From positions 1 to 64,000 of the forward strand of contig CAMEOT010000001.1 in assembly GCA_945929965.1 (NCBI GenBank): 64,000 nucleotides of DNA, in the 5' to 3' direction. Positions 2,181-63,458 of this stretch are shown here, in pieces. Position numbers and translations under genes: made by a program. Origin of the DNA: an uncultured Lachnospiraceae bacterium (lineage in GTDB: Bacteria > Bacillota > Clostridia > Lachnospirales > Lachnospiraceae). Numbering within the stretch: position 1 is the stretch's first letter; the number at the start of each line of letters is the position of its first letter. Below the pieces are notes generated by a model, which was not told where the DNA came from, made no database searches, and saw only the letters and a list, made by a program, of their open reading frames with translations.

Positions 2181-4292
2181 TTATACTTCAAAAATCAGAT
2201 CACCATAGGTAGGTACCGGCCATACCTTCTTGTCAACCATCATCTCCAGTGCATCCACGGGAGTTCTCAGGTCATCCATTGCGGTATGTACCACATCTTT
2301 ATAGAAGAAAGCAAGCTTCTTGGGATCTTCGATGCCTGCTGCCTCTGCCAGCTTATCCTCCAGAGTGGTCTCGGCAGCCTGTGCCTCTGCCAGCTTCTCG
2401 GAGATGCTCTTCAGTACCGTGGTCTGTACGGTAGCATCAGCGCCTGCGCTCTTTACAGCCAGTACGGTATCAGCCAGGGTCTTGGTGTACTCCATAACTG
2501 CGGGAATGTACTGCTTCTTCGCCATATCTACCATGGTCAGAGCTTCGATATTGATGGTCTTGGAGTAGGTTTCGTACAGAACCTCCTCACGGGATCTTAA
2601 CTCCGCCTCGGTGAAGATACCGAACTTCTCGAACAGTTTGATGGACTTCTCGGTGGTTAGAGTCTCGGAAGCCTCTACCATGGACTTGATGTTGGGAAGT
2701 CCTCTTCTGGCTGCCTCTTCTACCCATTCCTCGGAATAACCGTTACCGTTGAAAATGATTCTCTGATGCTCGGTCAGATACTTCTTGATCAGATCATGAA
2801 CGGCAACATCGAAATCGTCTGCCTTCTCCAGAATGTCTGCTGCCTCGCAGAAAGCTTCTGCAACGATAGCATTCAGAGTGGTGTTGGGGCTAGCGATGGA
2901 ATCTGCACTACCTACCATACGGAACTCGAACTTGTTGCCGGTGAAAGCAAACGGTGAAGTTCTGTTACGGTCTGTTGCATCCTTATCCAGATCCGGCAGT
3001 GTGGATACGCCGGTCAGAAGCTTACCACCCTGGATAGAATGGGTTGCATCACCGGTCTCAACCAGCTGCTTTACCACATCCTCCAGCTGCTCACCCAGGA
3101 ATACGGAGATGATGGCAGGGGGTGCCTCGTTGGCTCCCAGTCTGTGATCGTTGCCGACATCGGATGCACTCTGACGAAGCAGATCTGCATGGGTATCTAC
3201 GGCTTTCAGAATACATGCCAGTACCAACAGGAACTGGATGTTCTCGTTAGGAGTGTCGCCGGGATCTAACAGGTTCACGCCATTATCAGTTCCCAGGGAC
3301 CAGTTGTTATGTTTACCGGAGCCGTTCACTCCGGCGAAAGGCTTCTCATGCAGCAGACAGGTCATTCCATGACGACCGGCTACTTTTTTCATCGTCTCCA
3401 TAACCAGCTGGTTATGATCTACTGCGATGTTAGCAGTCTCATAAATGGGTGCCAGTTCATGCTGTGCGGGAGCTACCTCGTTGTGCTGTGTCTTGGCGGT
3501 TACGCCCAGCTTCCACAGCTCAATATTCAGATCCTTCATGAAGGAACCGATTCTCTCGCGGATGGTACCAAAGTAATGATCCTCCAGTTCCTGTCCCTTG
3601 GGTGCGGGTGCACCGAACAGGGTGCGTCCTGCGAAGATCAGATCTTCACGCTTTAAGTATTTATCTCTGTCTACCAGGAAATATTCCTGCTCCGGTCCTA
3701 CACTTGCTACGACCTTGGTAGCTTCGGTATTGCCGAACAGTCTTACGATACGCAGTGCCTGGGTGCTGACAGCTTCCATGGAACGAAGCAGGGGTGTCTT
3801 CTTATCCAGTGCCTCACCCTTGTAAGAACAGAAAGCAGTGGGAATGCAAAGGATCACGCCGGTTGCATCTTCTTTCAGAAATGCAGGAGATGTGATATCC
3901 CATGCGGTATAGCCTCTTGCCTCAAAGGTTGCTCGTAAGCCTCCGGAGGGAAAGGAAGATGCATCGGGCTCGCCCTTGATCAGTTCCTTGCCGGAGAACT
4001 CCATGATCATCTTACCTGATTCATCGGGATGAGTTACGAATGCGTCATGCTTCTCAGCAGTGATACCGGTCAGAGGCTGGAACCAGTGAGTATAATGTGT
4101 TGCACCGTTCTCGATTGCCCAGTCCTTCATTGCTTTTGCCACAACATCTGCGGTAGCTAAAGACAGCTCTCCGCCATGATCAATGATCTTCTTCACTTCT
4201 TTGTAGACGCTCTTGGGTAATCTTTCCCTCATCTTACCCAGAGTGAATACCTTACTGCCAAAGATTTCTTCCACATTTAATACTTCACTCAT
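2181..4292 (-). CDS. glnN: Glutamine synthetase type III
   Basis: About 700 aa; motifs [42 protein letters not shown] typical of GSIII; SD GGAGGAAACGAAGATG before MSEVLNVEE. Confidence 0.96.
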   Translation of the reverse strand: MSEVLNVEEIFGSKVFTLGKMRERLPKSVYKEVKKIIDHGGELSLATADVVAKAMKDWAIENGATHYTHWFQPLTGITAEKHDAFVTHPDESGKMIMEFSGKELIKGEPDASSFPSGGLRATFEARGYTAWDITSPAFLKEDATGVILCIPTAFCSYKGEALDKKTPLLRSMEAVSTQALRIVRLFGNTEATKVVASVGPEQEYFLVDRDKYLKREDLIFAGRTLFGAPAPKGQELEDHYFGTIRERIGSFMKDLNIELWKLGVTAKTQHNEVAPAQHELAPIYETANIAVDHNQLVMETMKKVAGRHGMTCLLHEKPFAGVNGSGKHNNWSLGTDNGVNLLDPGDTPNENIQFLLVLACILKAVDTHADLLRQSASDVGNDHRLGANEAPPAIISVFLGEQLEDVVKQLVETGDATHSIQGGKLLTGVSTLPDLDKDATDRNRTSPFAFTGNKFEFRMVGSADSIASPNTTLNAIVAEAFCEAADILEKADDFDVAVHDLIKKYLTEHQRIIFNGNGYSEEWVEEAARRGLPNIKSMVEASETLTTEKSIKLFEKFGIFTEAELRSREEVLYETYSKTINIEALTMVDMAKKQYIPAVMEYTKTLADTVLAVKSAGADATVQTTVLKSISEKLAEAQAAETTLEDKLAEAAGIEDPKKLAFFYKDVVHTAMDDLRTPVDALEMMVDKKVWPVPTYGDLIFEV

Positions 4293-4417
4293 CTTCGTTT
4301 CCTCCTTATTTTTGCTATTTTTCATGCTTCCTGCGACTACACCGACACAGTTGCTATTCAGAACTCACATGTGCAAAATCGCATCTGCGATGCTTTCCGG
4401 GTGGCTCCAAATAGCAA

Positions 4418-4457
4418 CAAAAAAGGCGCTACACTCCTAGTGTAAACGCCTTCGTTT
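4418..4457 (-). promoter_or_regulatory. Leader terminator/attenuator hairpin with overlapping alternative hairpin upstream of glnN
   Basis: RNA sense AAGGCGTTTACACTAGGAGTGTAGCGCCTTTTTTG (stem plus U tract); 5' strand overlaps AAAC-GAAGGC-GTTT. Confidence 0.65.
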
Positions 4458-4505
4458 CGCATTGAAAAATATTAACTTGTGAGGATCGCTCCTCTATGGT
4501 TCATT

Positions 4506-4534
4506 ACTATACAACAGTTTTTTTTCGATTGCAA
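4506..4534 (-). promoter_or_regulatory. Sigma-A-like promoter of glnN
   Basis: TTGCAA-17 bp-TATAGT on the minus strand. Confidence 0.65.
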
Positions 4535-4587
4535 TACCCTTTTTGAAAAAAATTTATTATTGCATCCGAAACGACCTTTGAAACGTC

Positions 4588-6699
4588 CTATACCTCGAAA
4601 AGCAGATCCGCATAGGTCGGGAACGGCCAGTACTTTTTATCTACCAGCTTCTCCAGTTCATCCGCAGGTCTTCTCAGAGCGTTCATTGCCACCATGACTT
4701 TATCGTGATAGCAGAATGCCTGCTCCTTGCCTCTGGGCATGGCAGAAGCTTTCTTCTCCTCTTCTAACAGTGCCTCGGATGCCTTCTCCATCTCCGTCAG
4801 CTTCTGTGTGATCTGCTGCAGCATACGGGTAGGAACATACGTGTCTCCGCCGGCCTCTGTGATAGCGATCACAGCATCCGCCAAAGACTTGCTGTACTTC
4901 ATGACTGCGGGGATGATCTGCTTATTCGCCATATCCAACATGGTCAGCGCCTCGATATTGATGGTCTTCGCATAGGTCTCATACAGTACCTCCGCACGGG
5001 AGCGCAGCTCTGCTTCGGTGAAAATACCGAACTTTTCAAACAGATGGATCGCCTTGGGGGTGGTCAGGGTGTCTACTGCCGCCACCATGGAAGGAATGTT
5101 GGGCAATCCTCTTCTGGCTGCTTCTTCTTCCCATTCCTTGGCATAACCGTTGCCATTGAAAATAATTCTCTGATGCTCGGTCATATATTCCTTGATCAGA
5201 TCATGAACTGCCATATCGAAATCTTCCGCACCTTCCAGGCGGTCTGCTGCTTCGCAGAAAGCCTCTGCCACAATGGCATTCAGAGTGGTGTTGGGACTTC
5301 CGATGGAATCCTCGCTTCCCACCATACGGAACTCGAATTTATTACCGGTAAACGCGAAAGGTGACGTACGGTTTCTGTCCGTCGCATCCTTTACAAAATC
5401 AGGAAGCGTAGATACACCGGTACGGAGCATGCCGCCCTCTTTCAGATTATCCGCTTTACCGGTCTCTACCAGCTGTGACACGACATCCTCCAGCTGCTCA
5501 CCCAGGAAAATAGAGATGATAGCAGGAGGTGCCTCATAGCCACCCAGTCTGTGATCGTTGCCTACGTTGGACGCACTCTGGCGCAGCAGATCCGCATGGG
5601 TATCTACTGCCTTCATGATACATGCCAGCACTAATAAAAACTGAATATTTTCATTCGGGGTCTGTCCCGGCTCTAACAGATTCACACCGTTGTCCGTGGT
5701 GATAGACCAGTTATTATGCTTACCGGAACCGTTCACTCCGGCAAAAGGCTTCTCATGCAGCATACAGCGCAGGCCATGTTTGCCTGCCACACGCTTCAGT
5801 GTCTCCATTACCAGCTGGTTATGGTCCACTGCCACATTCGCGGATTCGTAGATGGGAGCCACTTCGTGCTGTGCGGGAGCTGCCTCATTATGCTGGGTCT
5901 TGGAAGTCACGCCCAATTTCCACAGCTCAATATTCACGTCATGCATAAATCCGCCGATACGCTCACGGATAACACCGAAATAATGGTCATCCATCTCCTG
6001 ACCCTTAGGTGCAGGGGCACCGAACAGGGTGCGTCCGGAGAAAATAATATCTTCACGCTGCAGCGCCTTGGCAGAATCCACCAGGAAATATTCCTGTTCT
6101 GCACCGACGGAAGGCAGTACCTTGGTTGCCTCTGTATTACCGAACAGACGTACAATGCGGATTGCCTGTTTGCTCAAAGCTTCCATGGAACGAAGTAACG
6201 GTGTCTTTTTATCCAGAGCTTCGCCCTTATAAGAACAGAAAGCAGTGGGGATACAAAGCGTCGGACCGGTTGCTGTCTCTTTGATAAATGCAGGAGAGGT
6301 AATATCCCATGTGGTATAACCTCTTGCCTCAAAAGTCGCACGCAAGCCCCCGGACGGGAAAGAAGATGCATCAGGCTCGCCCTTGATCAGTTCCTTACCG
6401 GAAAATTCCATGATCATACGGCCATCCTCATCGGGATGTGTTACAAAAGCATCGTGTTTTTCAGCGGTGATACCGGTCAACGGCTGGAACCAATGAGTAT
6501 AATGGGTTGCCCCGTTCTCGATCGCCCAGTCTTTCATTGCTGTTGCCACCACATCGGCAGTCGCCAGGGAAAGTTCTCCTCCCTGATCCATGACTTTCTT
6601 GACTTCTTTGTAAGTGCTCTTGGGGAGTCTCTCTTTCATTTTACCCAAAGTAAATACTTTGCTGGCGAAAAGCTCCTCTACATTTAATTCTTCGCGCAT
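4588..6699 (-). CDS. glnN: Glutamine synthetase type III (second tandem copy)
   Basis: Highly similar to the 2181-4292 product across its length; start [10 protein letters not shown]. Confidence 0.95.
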
Positions 6700-6771
6700 G
6701 TCCCTACTTCCCTTCGGTGTACTAATAATATCGATTACAGTGTACAACATGTGCGTTATAGTGGTCAATTA

Positions 6772-30085: not shown

Positions 30086-30161
30086 TAAATAATTGGGATG
30101 TTTTTCATAACCCAGCAGAAAAGGACTGCTCCCCCGGCGTAGATGCGGCGGAGACTGTGAG

Positions 30162-30296
30162 ATTTTCTTGGAAAGTGGTTGAACCGCAGGGGCAATGCGA
30201 ACACGATGTTCGCGTTAGCCGATAAGTGCCATGGATGGCAACGTAAAGGCGGCCCCGTCATGATGAGAAGCACCTGGCCACTTTCCTTTAGAAAAT
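30162..30296 (-). repeat. Right (inverted) copy of structured element flanking the tandem repeat
   Basis: Reverse complement reads ATTTTCTAAAGGAAAGTGG...GTTGCCATCCATGGCA...GCGAACATCGTGTTCGC...CCACTTTCCAAGAAAAT. Confidence 0.75.
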
Positions 30297-30408
30297 CCAC
30301 AGTTGTAGCTAGCATCCGAGTCCGGGGCGGGCAGCCCATTCTGCGTGGATTTTAGAACAACTATTTCACTAACTTTCAAGTTAGTTTGGTGTAAAAACTC
30401 TAAAAACA

Positions 30409-61355: not shown

Positions 61356-63107
61356 TTATTCGACATCTTGTAATGCCGCAAAATCTTCTTCGCCGGTACG
61401 AACTTTTACTACCTTGTCTACGTTGTATACGAAGATCTTGCCATCACCGATATGTCCGGTGTACAGAGCCTTCTTGGCAGCCTCGATGACTGCGCTTACG
61501 GGAATCTTGCTGACAATAACTTCTACCTTAACCTTAGGCAGAAGGGTTGCATCCATCTCGACTCCACGATACATCTCGCCGGCACCCTTCTGGATACCAC
61601 AACCCATAACCTGTGTCATGGTCATACCGGTTACACCCAGATCATTCAGTGCCTTCTTCAGAGCCTCAAATCTTGCAAGCTTTGCAATAACAACTACTTT
61701 GTAGATACCGGTTGCAGGAATTGCTGCCGGAGTTGTCTCTACCTTCACTGCGGCATCCTTCATGGTGGCGGATGCTGCGTCATAATCACTTACGCCAAGG
61801 CTGGTGTTTTCATTTACCTCCATGGTCATAGTGTTGGAAATATCCATAATGCTGAAGCCTGCATATGCGGAAGGAAGACCATGCTCACAGGAATCCAGAC
61901 CAACGATCTCTTCTTCCTCAGATACACGTAAGCCTACAGTAGCCTTGATGATCAGGAATGCAATGGTAATGGTTACTGCAGTCCATGCTGCTACACTTAC
62001 AAAACCTAACAGTTGTAAACCAAGCTGCTTGAATCCACCGCCATAGAACAAACCTACAACACTGTCGTTGCCGGGTGCGGAAGTGGTTGCGAACAAACCG
62101 GTTGCAATGGTACCCCAGATACCGTTCAGGCAATGTACTGCAACTGCACCTACGGGATCATCAATATGAAGCTTGTAATCCAGAAGCCATACACCGAATA
62201 CTACCAGAAGTCCGGCTACCGCACCGATTACGATAGCACCGAAGCAATCAGTTACATCACAAGGAGCGGTAATAGCTACCAGACCTGCCAGAGATGCATT
62301 CAGACACATAGATACATCGGGCTTGCCATATTTGATCCAGGTAAATACCATACATACTACAGTTGCGATTGCGGGAGCTACGGTTGTGGTGAGGAATACG
62401 GAACCTAACTGCTCTACAGAAGTACAAGCTGCACCGTTGAATCCATACCAGCCAAGCCACAGAATGAATACACCAAGACATCCGATCGGAAGGTTATGTC
62501 CGGGGAATGCATTTACTTTTACGATCTTACCACTCTTATCCTTATCAAACTTACCGATACGGGGTCCTAACAGTTTTGCACCGATCAGTGCGGAAATACC
62601 ACCAACCATGTGGATTGCACAGGATCCTGCGAAATCATGGAAGCCAAGCTGTGCCAGCCAGCCGCCGCCCCAGATCCAGTGAGCTTCGATGGGATAAATC
62701 AAAGCGGAGATCACACCGGAATAAATACAGTAGGATAAGAACTTGGTTCTCTCTGCCATAGCACCGGATACGATGGTAGCTGTGGTAGCACAGAACACCA
62801 GGTTAAATACGAAATTTGAATAATCAAAATTGTCGTATGCGGTGAAGATGTCCAGACCGGGCTTACCGATCAGACCTACCATATCCTCACCAAGTAACAG
62901 TCCAAAGCCGATCAGAATAAATACTACAGTACCGATACAGAAATCCATCAGATTCTTCATCAGGATATTACCGGCATTCTTGGCTCTGGTAAATCCGGTC
63001 TCCACCATTGCGAATCCGGCCTGCATCCAGAACACCAAAGCCGCACCGATCAGAAACCAGACTGCAAATAATTGACCGTCTACTGCGCTTAAGATTTCTT
63101 CTGTCAT
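61356..63107 (-). CDS. amt: Ammonium transporter with C-terminal PII (GlnB/GlnK) domain
   Basis: Amt core WMQAGFAMVETGFTRAKNAGNILMKN...; C-term YKVVVIAKLARFEALKKALNDLGVTGMTMTQVMGCGIQKGAGEMYRGVEMD...TGHIGDGKIFVYNVDKVVKVRTGE. Confidence 0.96.
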   Translation of the reverse strand: MTEEILSAVDGQLFAVWFLIGAALVFWMQAGFAMVETGFTRAKNAGNILMKNLMDFCIGTVVFILIGFGLLLGEDMVGLIGKPGLDIFTAYDNFDYSNFVFNLVFCATTATIVSGAMAERTKFLSYCIYSGVISALIYPIEAHWIWGGGWLAQLGFHDFAGSCAIHMVGGISALIGAKLLGPRIGKFDKDKSGKIVKVNAFPGHNLPIGCLGVFILWLGWYGFNGAACTSVEQLGSVFLTTTVAPAIATVVCMVFTWIKYGKPDVSMCLNASLAGLVAITAPCDVTDCFGAIVIGAVAGLLVVFGVWLLDYKLHIDDPVGAVAVHCLNGIWGTIATGLFATTSAPGNDSVVGLFYGGGFKQLGLQLLGFVSVAAWTAVTITIAFLIIKATVGLRVSEEEEIVGLDSCEHGLPSAYAGFSIMDISNTMTMEVNENTSLGVSDYDAASATMKDAAVKVETTPAAIPATGIYKVVVIAKLARFEALKKALNDLGVTGMTMTQVMGCGIQKGAGEMYRGVEMDATLLPKVKVEVIVSKIPVSAVIEAAKKALYTGHIGDGKIFVYNVDKVVKVRTGEEDFAALQDVE

Positions 63108-63200
63108 AACATTTTCCTCCTCGTTTGCAAAAATAAATGCGATACTATGAGCCCTCCCTCGAAGCCCCATCGCATCGCATTTTTATCGCTATAACAAAAT

Positions 63201-63235
63201 AGGCACTACAGATATCTTCTGTAGCGCCTTTGCTA
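63201..63235 (-). promoter_or_regulatory. Leader hairpin upstream of amt, similar to the glnN leader
   Basis: RNA sense TAGC-AAAGGC-GCTA overlapping GGCGCTACAGA-AGATA-TCTGTAGTGCC followed by TATTTTGTT. Confidence 0.6.
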
Positions 63236-63242
63236 TGGTGAG

Positions 63243-63271
63243 AGTATAGCACCATGATTTTAGAGTGTCAA
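63243..63271 (-). promoter_or_regulatory. Sigma-A promoter of amt
   Basis: TTGACA-17 bp-TATACT on the minus strand. Confidence 0.85.
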
Positions 63272-63458
63272 CCCGTTTTTTATAATTTTTTATATTTTTT
63301 ACAGTTCAGCCATGAACATATCGAGAACCAAAATCATGCCAGCATGATTTTGTGAACGAATATGTTCATGTGATGAGCGCCGATTTATGAGCAAAGTCAG
63401 TCACGAGGTGACGGAAAGCGTGATAACGCGACTTTGCGAATGGTGCGGGCTGGACTGT

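Follow-up and report, generated by a model that had tools for sequence, protein, structure and literature searches.

NitR of Clostridium saccharobutylicum is a glnA-linked ANTAR regulator of clostridia, and we know of no single-hexaloop regulon associated with it. Further points of comparison come from Bacillus subtilis pyrG, which is controlled by CTP through start-site or slippage (reiterative) attenuation, and from the cyanobacterial glnA RNA, a riboswitch-type leader of a glutamine gene. Antitermination of eutP by EutV needs two hairpins, P1 and P2, and EutV binds the pair far better (PMC3369931), which counts against reading any leader with one hairpin as an ANTAR target. Published searches for ANTAR targets required two stems, and the dual hairpin was called essential in eutP. 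A 2022 paper on the EutV structure proposed one hexaloop as the minimal binding site, with two kept for antitermination. Our search of the openly accessible literature for ANTAR in Lachnospiraceae and for single-hexaloop attenuators gave only this structure paper, which is weak evidence of absence.

The amt leader (63271-63193, minus strand) lies 5' of an ammonium-transporter gene of a gut bacterium, in a window of 64 kb, the whole stretch of DNA that was analysed. The gene (61356..63107, minus strand; PF00909, PF00543) encodes an ammonium transporter with a fused C-terminal P-II domain (Amt-GlnK fusion). Its predicted promoter, TTGACA-17-TATACT (63243..63271, minus strand), has an extended -10 and 11/12 consensus matches, with TTGACA at 63271-63266, a 17-nt spacer, and TATACT at 63248-63243 preceded by TG; this position is common to most amt leaders of relatives. 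The sequence 3' of the promoter reads ACCATAGC-AAAGGC-GCTACAGAAGATATCTGTAGTGCC-TATTTTGTT, ending T-rich. The predicted transcript starts with UAGC[AAAGGC]GCUA, a putative antiterminator hairpin 1-4 nt past the predicted start site (TAGC[AAAGGC]GCTA, 63222..63235, minus strand; loop 63231-63226, arms TAGC 63235-63232 and GCTA 63225-63222), for which covariation was found. An intrinsic terminator including its T tract occupies 63193..63229 (minus strand; consensus structure and covariance-model match), with a stem of 12 pairs at 63229-63201 and a core of -17.4 kcal/mol compared to -3.0 kcal/mol for the hexaloop hairpin. The terminator reuses the AGGC of the hexaloop and the hexaloop 3' arm, so the two folds are mutually exclusive.

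The amt -10 box lies within an inverted repeat, ATGGTG-CTATACTCT-CACCAT (63236-63256, minus strand), which was rejected as a P1 hairpin, its loop being 9 nt rather than 6; as far as seen, the repeat is not retained in relatives. Imperfect inverted repeats were also seen by eye in the interval from the GNAT gene to the amt promoter (63300-63440). Rfam searches of the whole window, and of both leaders under lax thresholds, yielded no relevant family, and neither amt nor glnN had a match at gathering score. Elsewhere in the window are two divergent TwoAYGGAY RNAs (RF01731; 29542-29704, minus strand, and 30146-30311, plus strand), with about 450 nt between them.

Further downstream, the amt leader holds a weaker hexaloop and terminator pair that was absent from the list of the first-pass annotation and is likely to make the leader a tandem attenuator. 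The candidate hairpin, CGATGC[GATGGG]GCTTCG with one U-U mismatch (63160..63177, minus strand; -4.4 kcal/mol), shares its 5' arm with a terminator-like hairpin of 16 pairs followed by ATTTTT (63135..63182, minus strand). This second hexaloop was present in 20/50 amt leaders of relatives, always with G at loop position 4 and with small variation in pairing.

A comparable arrangement precedes glnN2, a type III glutamine synthetase gene 3' of its leader (2181..4325, minus strand; PF12437, PF18318, PF00120). Two type III glutamine synthetase genes stand in tandem here (2181-6768, minus strand), with an attenuator only at the second; the first is almost leaderless. A promoter-like site, TTGCAA-17-TATAGT (4506..4534, minus strand; 9/12 consensus matches), is followed by the hairpin AAAC[GAAGGC]GTTT (4444..4457, minus strand) and an overlapping intrinsic terminator (4415..4453, minus strand; covariance-model match), so that the element (4463-4415) has a core in common with amt and an equivalent hexaloop-terminator relation. 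The first-pass annotation had proposed this common attenuator core, and the sequences bear it out: the closing stems can pair in each case (UAGC/GCUA and AAAC/GUUU), and the two loops share G at position 4 but differ at position 1, where amt has A and glnN has G. The covariance model matched exactly these two sites in the window, with E-values of 4e-9 and 2e-7, both of them members of its training set. That annotation had also pointed to a shared ACCAUAG at the predicted starts; the motif is real in both sequences, but it is absent from relatives and the similarity of the starts therefore carries no weight.

We aligned 33 leaders, consisting of 31 amt-bearing loci of the genus together with the glnN2 and glnQ-type leaders of this genome. 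The closing C-G pair and loop G4 were invariant and the three closing pairs held in 33/33, a set picked partly for having the stem, and 16 double-change cells were counted compared to 4.1 in shuffles. Because of this partial selection, a covariance model was built on the terminator fold alone, although its columns still take in the 5' flank at sequence level, and was searched against 61 genomes from the genus and 150 Lachnospiraceae genomes (approximately one per genus). Covariance-model matches were found in 51/61 and 112/150 genomes, respectively. With the stem filter omitted (116 matches in the genus, 86 in the family), pairing at stem pairs 2-4 exceeded 1000/1000 shuffles, and covariation at pairs 2, 3, and 4 arose via several pair types in both sets. 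The alternative hairpin that the first-pass annotation had expected relatives to preserve is thus retained. Of the family matches inspected, 87/89 had three or more stem pairs, and one of the two exceptions had probably been cut wrongly close to the end of a contig. Among accepted elements, loop position 4 was G in all and position 2 was A in nearly all, while position 1 was A in most and G in a minority that includes glnN2. The element lies beyond chance because relatives keep it with compensatory changes, and it carries several published features of an ANTAR target: an A1/G4 hexaloop in amt (AAAGGC), a stem of at least 3 bp kept by pairing, and overlap with a terminator that excludes it. Searching for the core as a simple DNA string, AAGGCG...GCCTTTT, did no better than its reversed control; the 5' arm is required.

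Assigned by sequence motifs, nitrogen or glutamine genes directly follow 152 of the 185 distinct accepted elements: amt, glnK, glnN (three sequence types), glnA, gltB, asnB, purF, pyrG, carA, glnQ (glutamine-type ABC), and an amino-acid binding protein gene. When nine representatives were put to NCBIfam, 8/9 were identified. Targets met only once include genes for an AGCS symporter and a urea/branched-chain permease. This distribution supports the earlier suggestion that ammonium uptake and assimilation are co-regulated at the RNA level. In the source genome, elements precede amt, glnN2, and a glnQ-type ABC operon (G000:C28:5746-5797). Several relatives also carry one 5' of glnA; glnA of the source genome lacks it, a point against the involvement of an ANTAR protein. 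Elements inside operons that lack a strong promoter (L006, L007, L013, L014, and L017) keep the same loop. In a genome of another family (G288, locus L397), a single TAAGC[AAAGGC]GCTTTT lies upstream of a gene that, judged by eye, is nifH-like.

The source genome encodes one ANTAR protein, of 182 aa, directly 3' of glnA (G000:C4:124623-125171, L002:4624-5172, minus strand), and the same arrangement was found in 56/60 loci; the first-pass annotation had named no such partner for the two leaders. Its PDB matches include EutV (6wsh), 1s8n, AmiR, and the nitrate regulatory protein 4akk, among others. Taking EutV residue numbers with our own offset of 2, the equivalents of K149, E160, and M172 are invariant in 57/57 ANTAR proteins. 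Counting against RNA recognition of the EutV type, the equivalent of Tyr164 is His or Phe, and several RNA-contacting positive residues of EutV (R142, R175, and R177) are not retained. Nearly all 57 have Ser or Gly in place of the phospho-acceptor D54, and the protein of the source genome gave no match to the Pfam receiver domain, consistent with a pseudo-receiver. In the gap between glnA and the ANTAR gene of the source genome (L002:5172-5288, minus strand), we noted GCGGA[AACGGG]TCGC with a short hairpin and TTTTTT behind it, so that the ANTAR gene may itself be under a bulged hexaloop attenuator.

An ANTAR protein was found in 136/150 family genomes, usually as a single copy. Element matches occurred in 109/136 genomes with the protein compared to 3/14 without it (p=1.6e-5), where the matches inspected in ANTAR-positive genomes were the higher-scoring ones. 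Only one match in the ANTAR-negative genomes combined a proper stem with a nitrogen gene, and a laxer search of all 14 returned mostly ordinary stemless terminators. The clear exception, and a point against the ANTAR reading, is the amt leader of G156 (98% complete, no ANTAR detected; L359/L383), with AGC[GAAGGG]GCT and a proper stem: either the ANTAR gene was missed or the element is a relic.

The co-occurrence of element and ANTAR gene, together with the regulon and the covariation, leads us to interpret the amt and glnN leaders as ANTAR-type transcription attenuators with a single hexaloop at the 5' end and without P1, a reading to which we assign a probability of roughly 0.78. By default, the nascent RNA would fold into the intrinsic terminator, and transcription would end approximately 45 nt past the amt start. 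When glutamine or ammonium is short, active glnA-linked ANTAR protein would bind the hexaloop hairpin (R1 A2 N3 G4) that arises from the initial ~20 nt, and the bound hairpin would withhold the GGCG segment from the terminator, allowing RNA polymerase to read into the gene. One hexaloop at the extreme 5' end would then suffice, with no P1 recruiting hairpin. A more ambitious version, which we consider doubtful, would have a family-wide glutamine regulon run through this single, first-transcribed hexaloop, with P1 dispensable, the start site built into the switch, and the neighbouring glutamine synthetase signalling to the pseudo-receiver ANTAR protein.

Precedent favors a canonical dual-hairpin target, in which the true start would lie further upstream and a P1 hexaloop would have been missed: the ANTAR targets in PMC3369931 and PMC8164766 are all dual, and EutV needs P1. 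We nevertheless consider this unlikely, given where the promoters lie. In 137/184 elements, where about 13 are expected, the distance from the end of a consensus -10 box to loop position 1 is 8-20 nt (69/98 in the genus compared to 6.1 in shuffles, 68/86 in the family compared to 6.9, and 42/49 compared to 2.2 for amt only), which places the predicted RNA start at or just before the hexaloop 5' arm. No P1 lies within ~5-12 nt upstream of P2 in the amt leader, which has no room for it; the first-pass annotation had said so of amt, and the same is the rule across Lachnospiraceae. Upstream A-N-N-G hexaloop hairpins occurred in 6/99 genus and 3/87 family elements, with 2.5 and 1.9 expected, and so not clearly above chance; of the six candidates, two represent the leading copy within tandem elements, and another two correspond to a hairpin of glnN2, in the source genome and a near relative. 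Yet the same scan recovered textbook P1-P2 pairs before amt in two other families, with the P1 hairpins GGTGC[AGTGCT]GCACC in G237 and GCC[ATTGAA]GGC in G263. The glnN2 hairpin (4481..4494, minus strand) can form GAGG[AGCGAT]CCTC, GAGG[AGCGAU]CCUC in the RNA, and so speaks for a dual target; it can also form GAGGA[GCGA]TCCTC, and we rejected it as P1. Its hexaloop form is limited to this genome and that one near-identical relative, leaders of other relatives have a GNRA tetraloop or no hairpin at the site, and its distance to P2 is 23 nt, compared to 5-12 nt in eut. As a further control, we looked for dual hairpins of eut in family genomes with two ANTAR proteins, and no eut operon was recognized in the stretches of G107 and G119 examined; in G107, both ANTAR copies are glnA-linked. 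Outside Lachnospiraceae, single promoter-near elements were found in a few glnN leaders (G359, G399, and G215).

Two explanations that dispense with the ANTAR protein appear still less probable, and we give each of them only a slight chance. The choice of start site, or slippage, could decide whether the 5' arm pairs and blocks the terminator, and the facts that the first nucleotides themselves form this arm and that pyrG is among the regulated genes fit such protein-free control. A free hairpin of -3.0 kcal/mol set against a terminator of -17.4 kcal/mol would, however, need a partner; moreover, loop A2 and G4 are conserved beyond pairing, the intra-operon elements keep their loop without a strong promoter, and the element tracks the ANTAR gene. 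Such a partner could instead be another RNA-binding protein or a small ligand such as glutamine, with ANTAR co-occurring for other reasons. Binding of the hexaloop by ANTAR is our inference, the receiver has lost its phospho-acceptor Asp, and G156 retains its amt element, all of which leave space for a different reader. Against it, the signature published for ANTAR is a hexaloop with an overlapping terminator, the ANTAR gene belongs to a glnA operon and in several relatives that operon bears the element, a 14-nt hairpin would be very small for a ligand aptamer, and no Rfam family matched.

Collectively, these findings favor the ANTAR-type attenuator with one start-site-proximal hairpin, which on sequence grounds is real and conserved and of which we found no prior description. 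Natural one-hexaloop attenuators found family-wide make the question of the minimal site directly testable. The data also suggest that dual-hairpin searches overlooked a nitrogen regulon of a major group of gut bacteria, one that would span ammonium uptake, glutamine synthetase genes of several kinds, glutamate synthase, and glutamine amidotransferases.

Among known systems, NitR resembles the putative regulator in that the ANTAR gene lies directly 3' of a type I glutamine synthetase gene, a likeness of description rather than of sequence. The cyanobacterial glnA RNA and B. subtilis pyrG share with these leaders the attenuation of glutamine-related genes, whereas here we found a conserved, protein-type hexaloop, no aptamer-sized domain, and no Rfam match. 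EutV/eutP of Enterococcus faecalis, NasR/nasF of Klebsiella, and AmiR/amiE of Pseudomonas have in common with our elements a G4 hexaloop, a stem of at least 3 bp, and terminator overlap (PMC3369931, PMC8934654). As in these dual-hairpin systems, the genome encodes an ANTAR protein and the elements precede nitrogen genes, in line with what has been reported of ammonium transporters, P-II, and glutamine synthetase (PMC3369931, PMC8934654). Loop position 1, A in the published consensus, is A or G here. In contrast to EutV, NasR, and AmiR targets, there is one hexaloop rather than two, at the predicted 5' end of the transcript, and the likely regulator has a receiver without a phospho-acceptor and is linked to glnA instead of being tied to a sensor kinase or ligand-binding partner.
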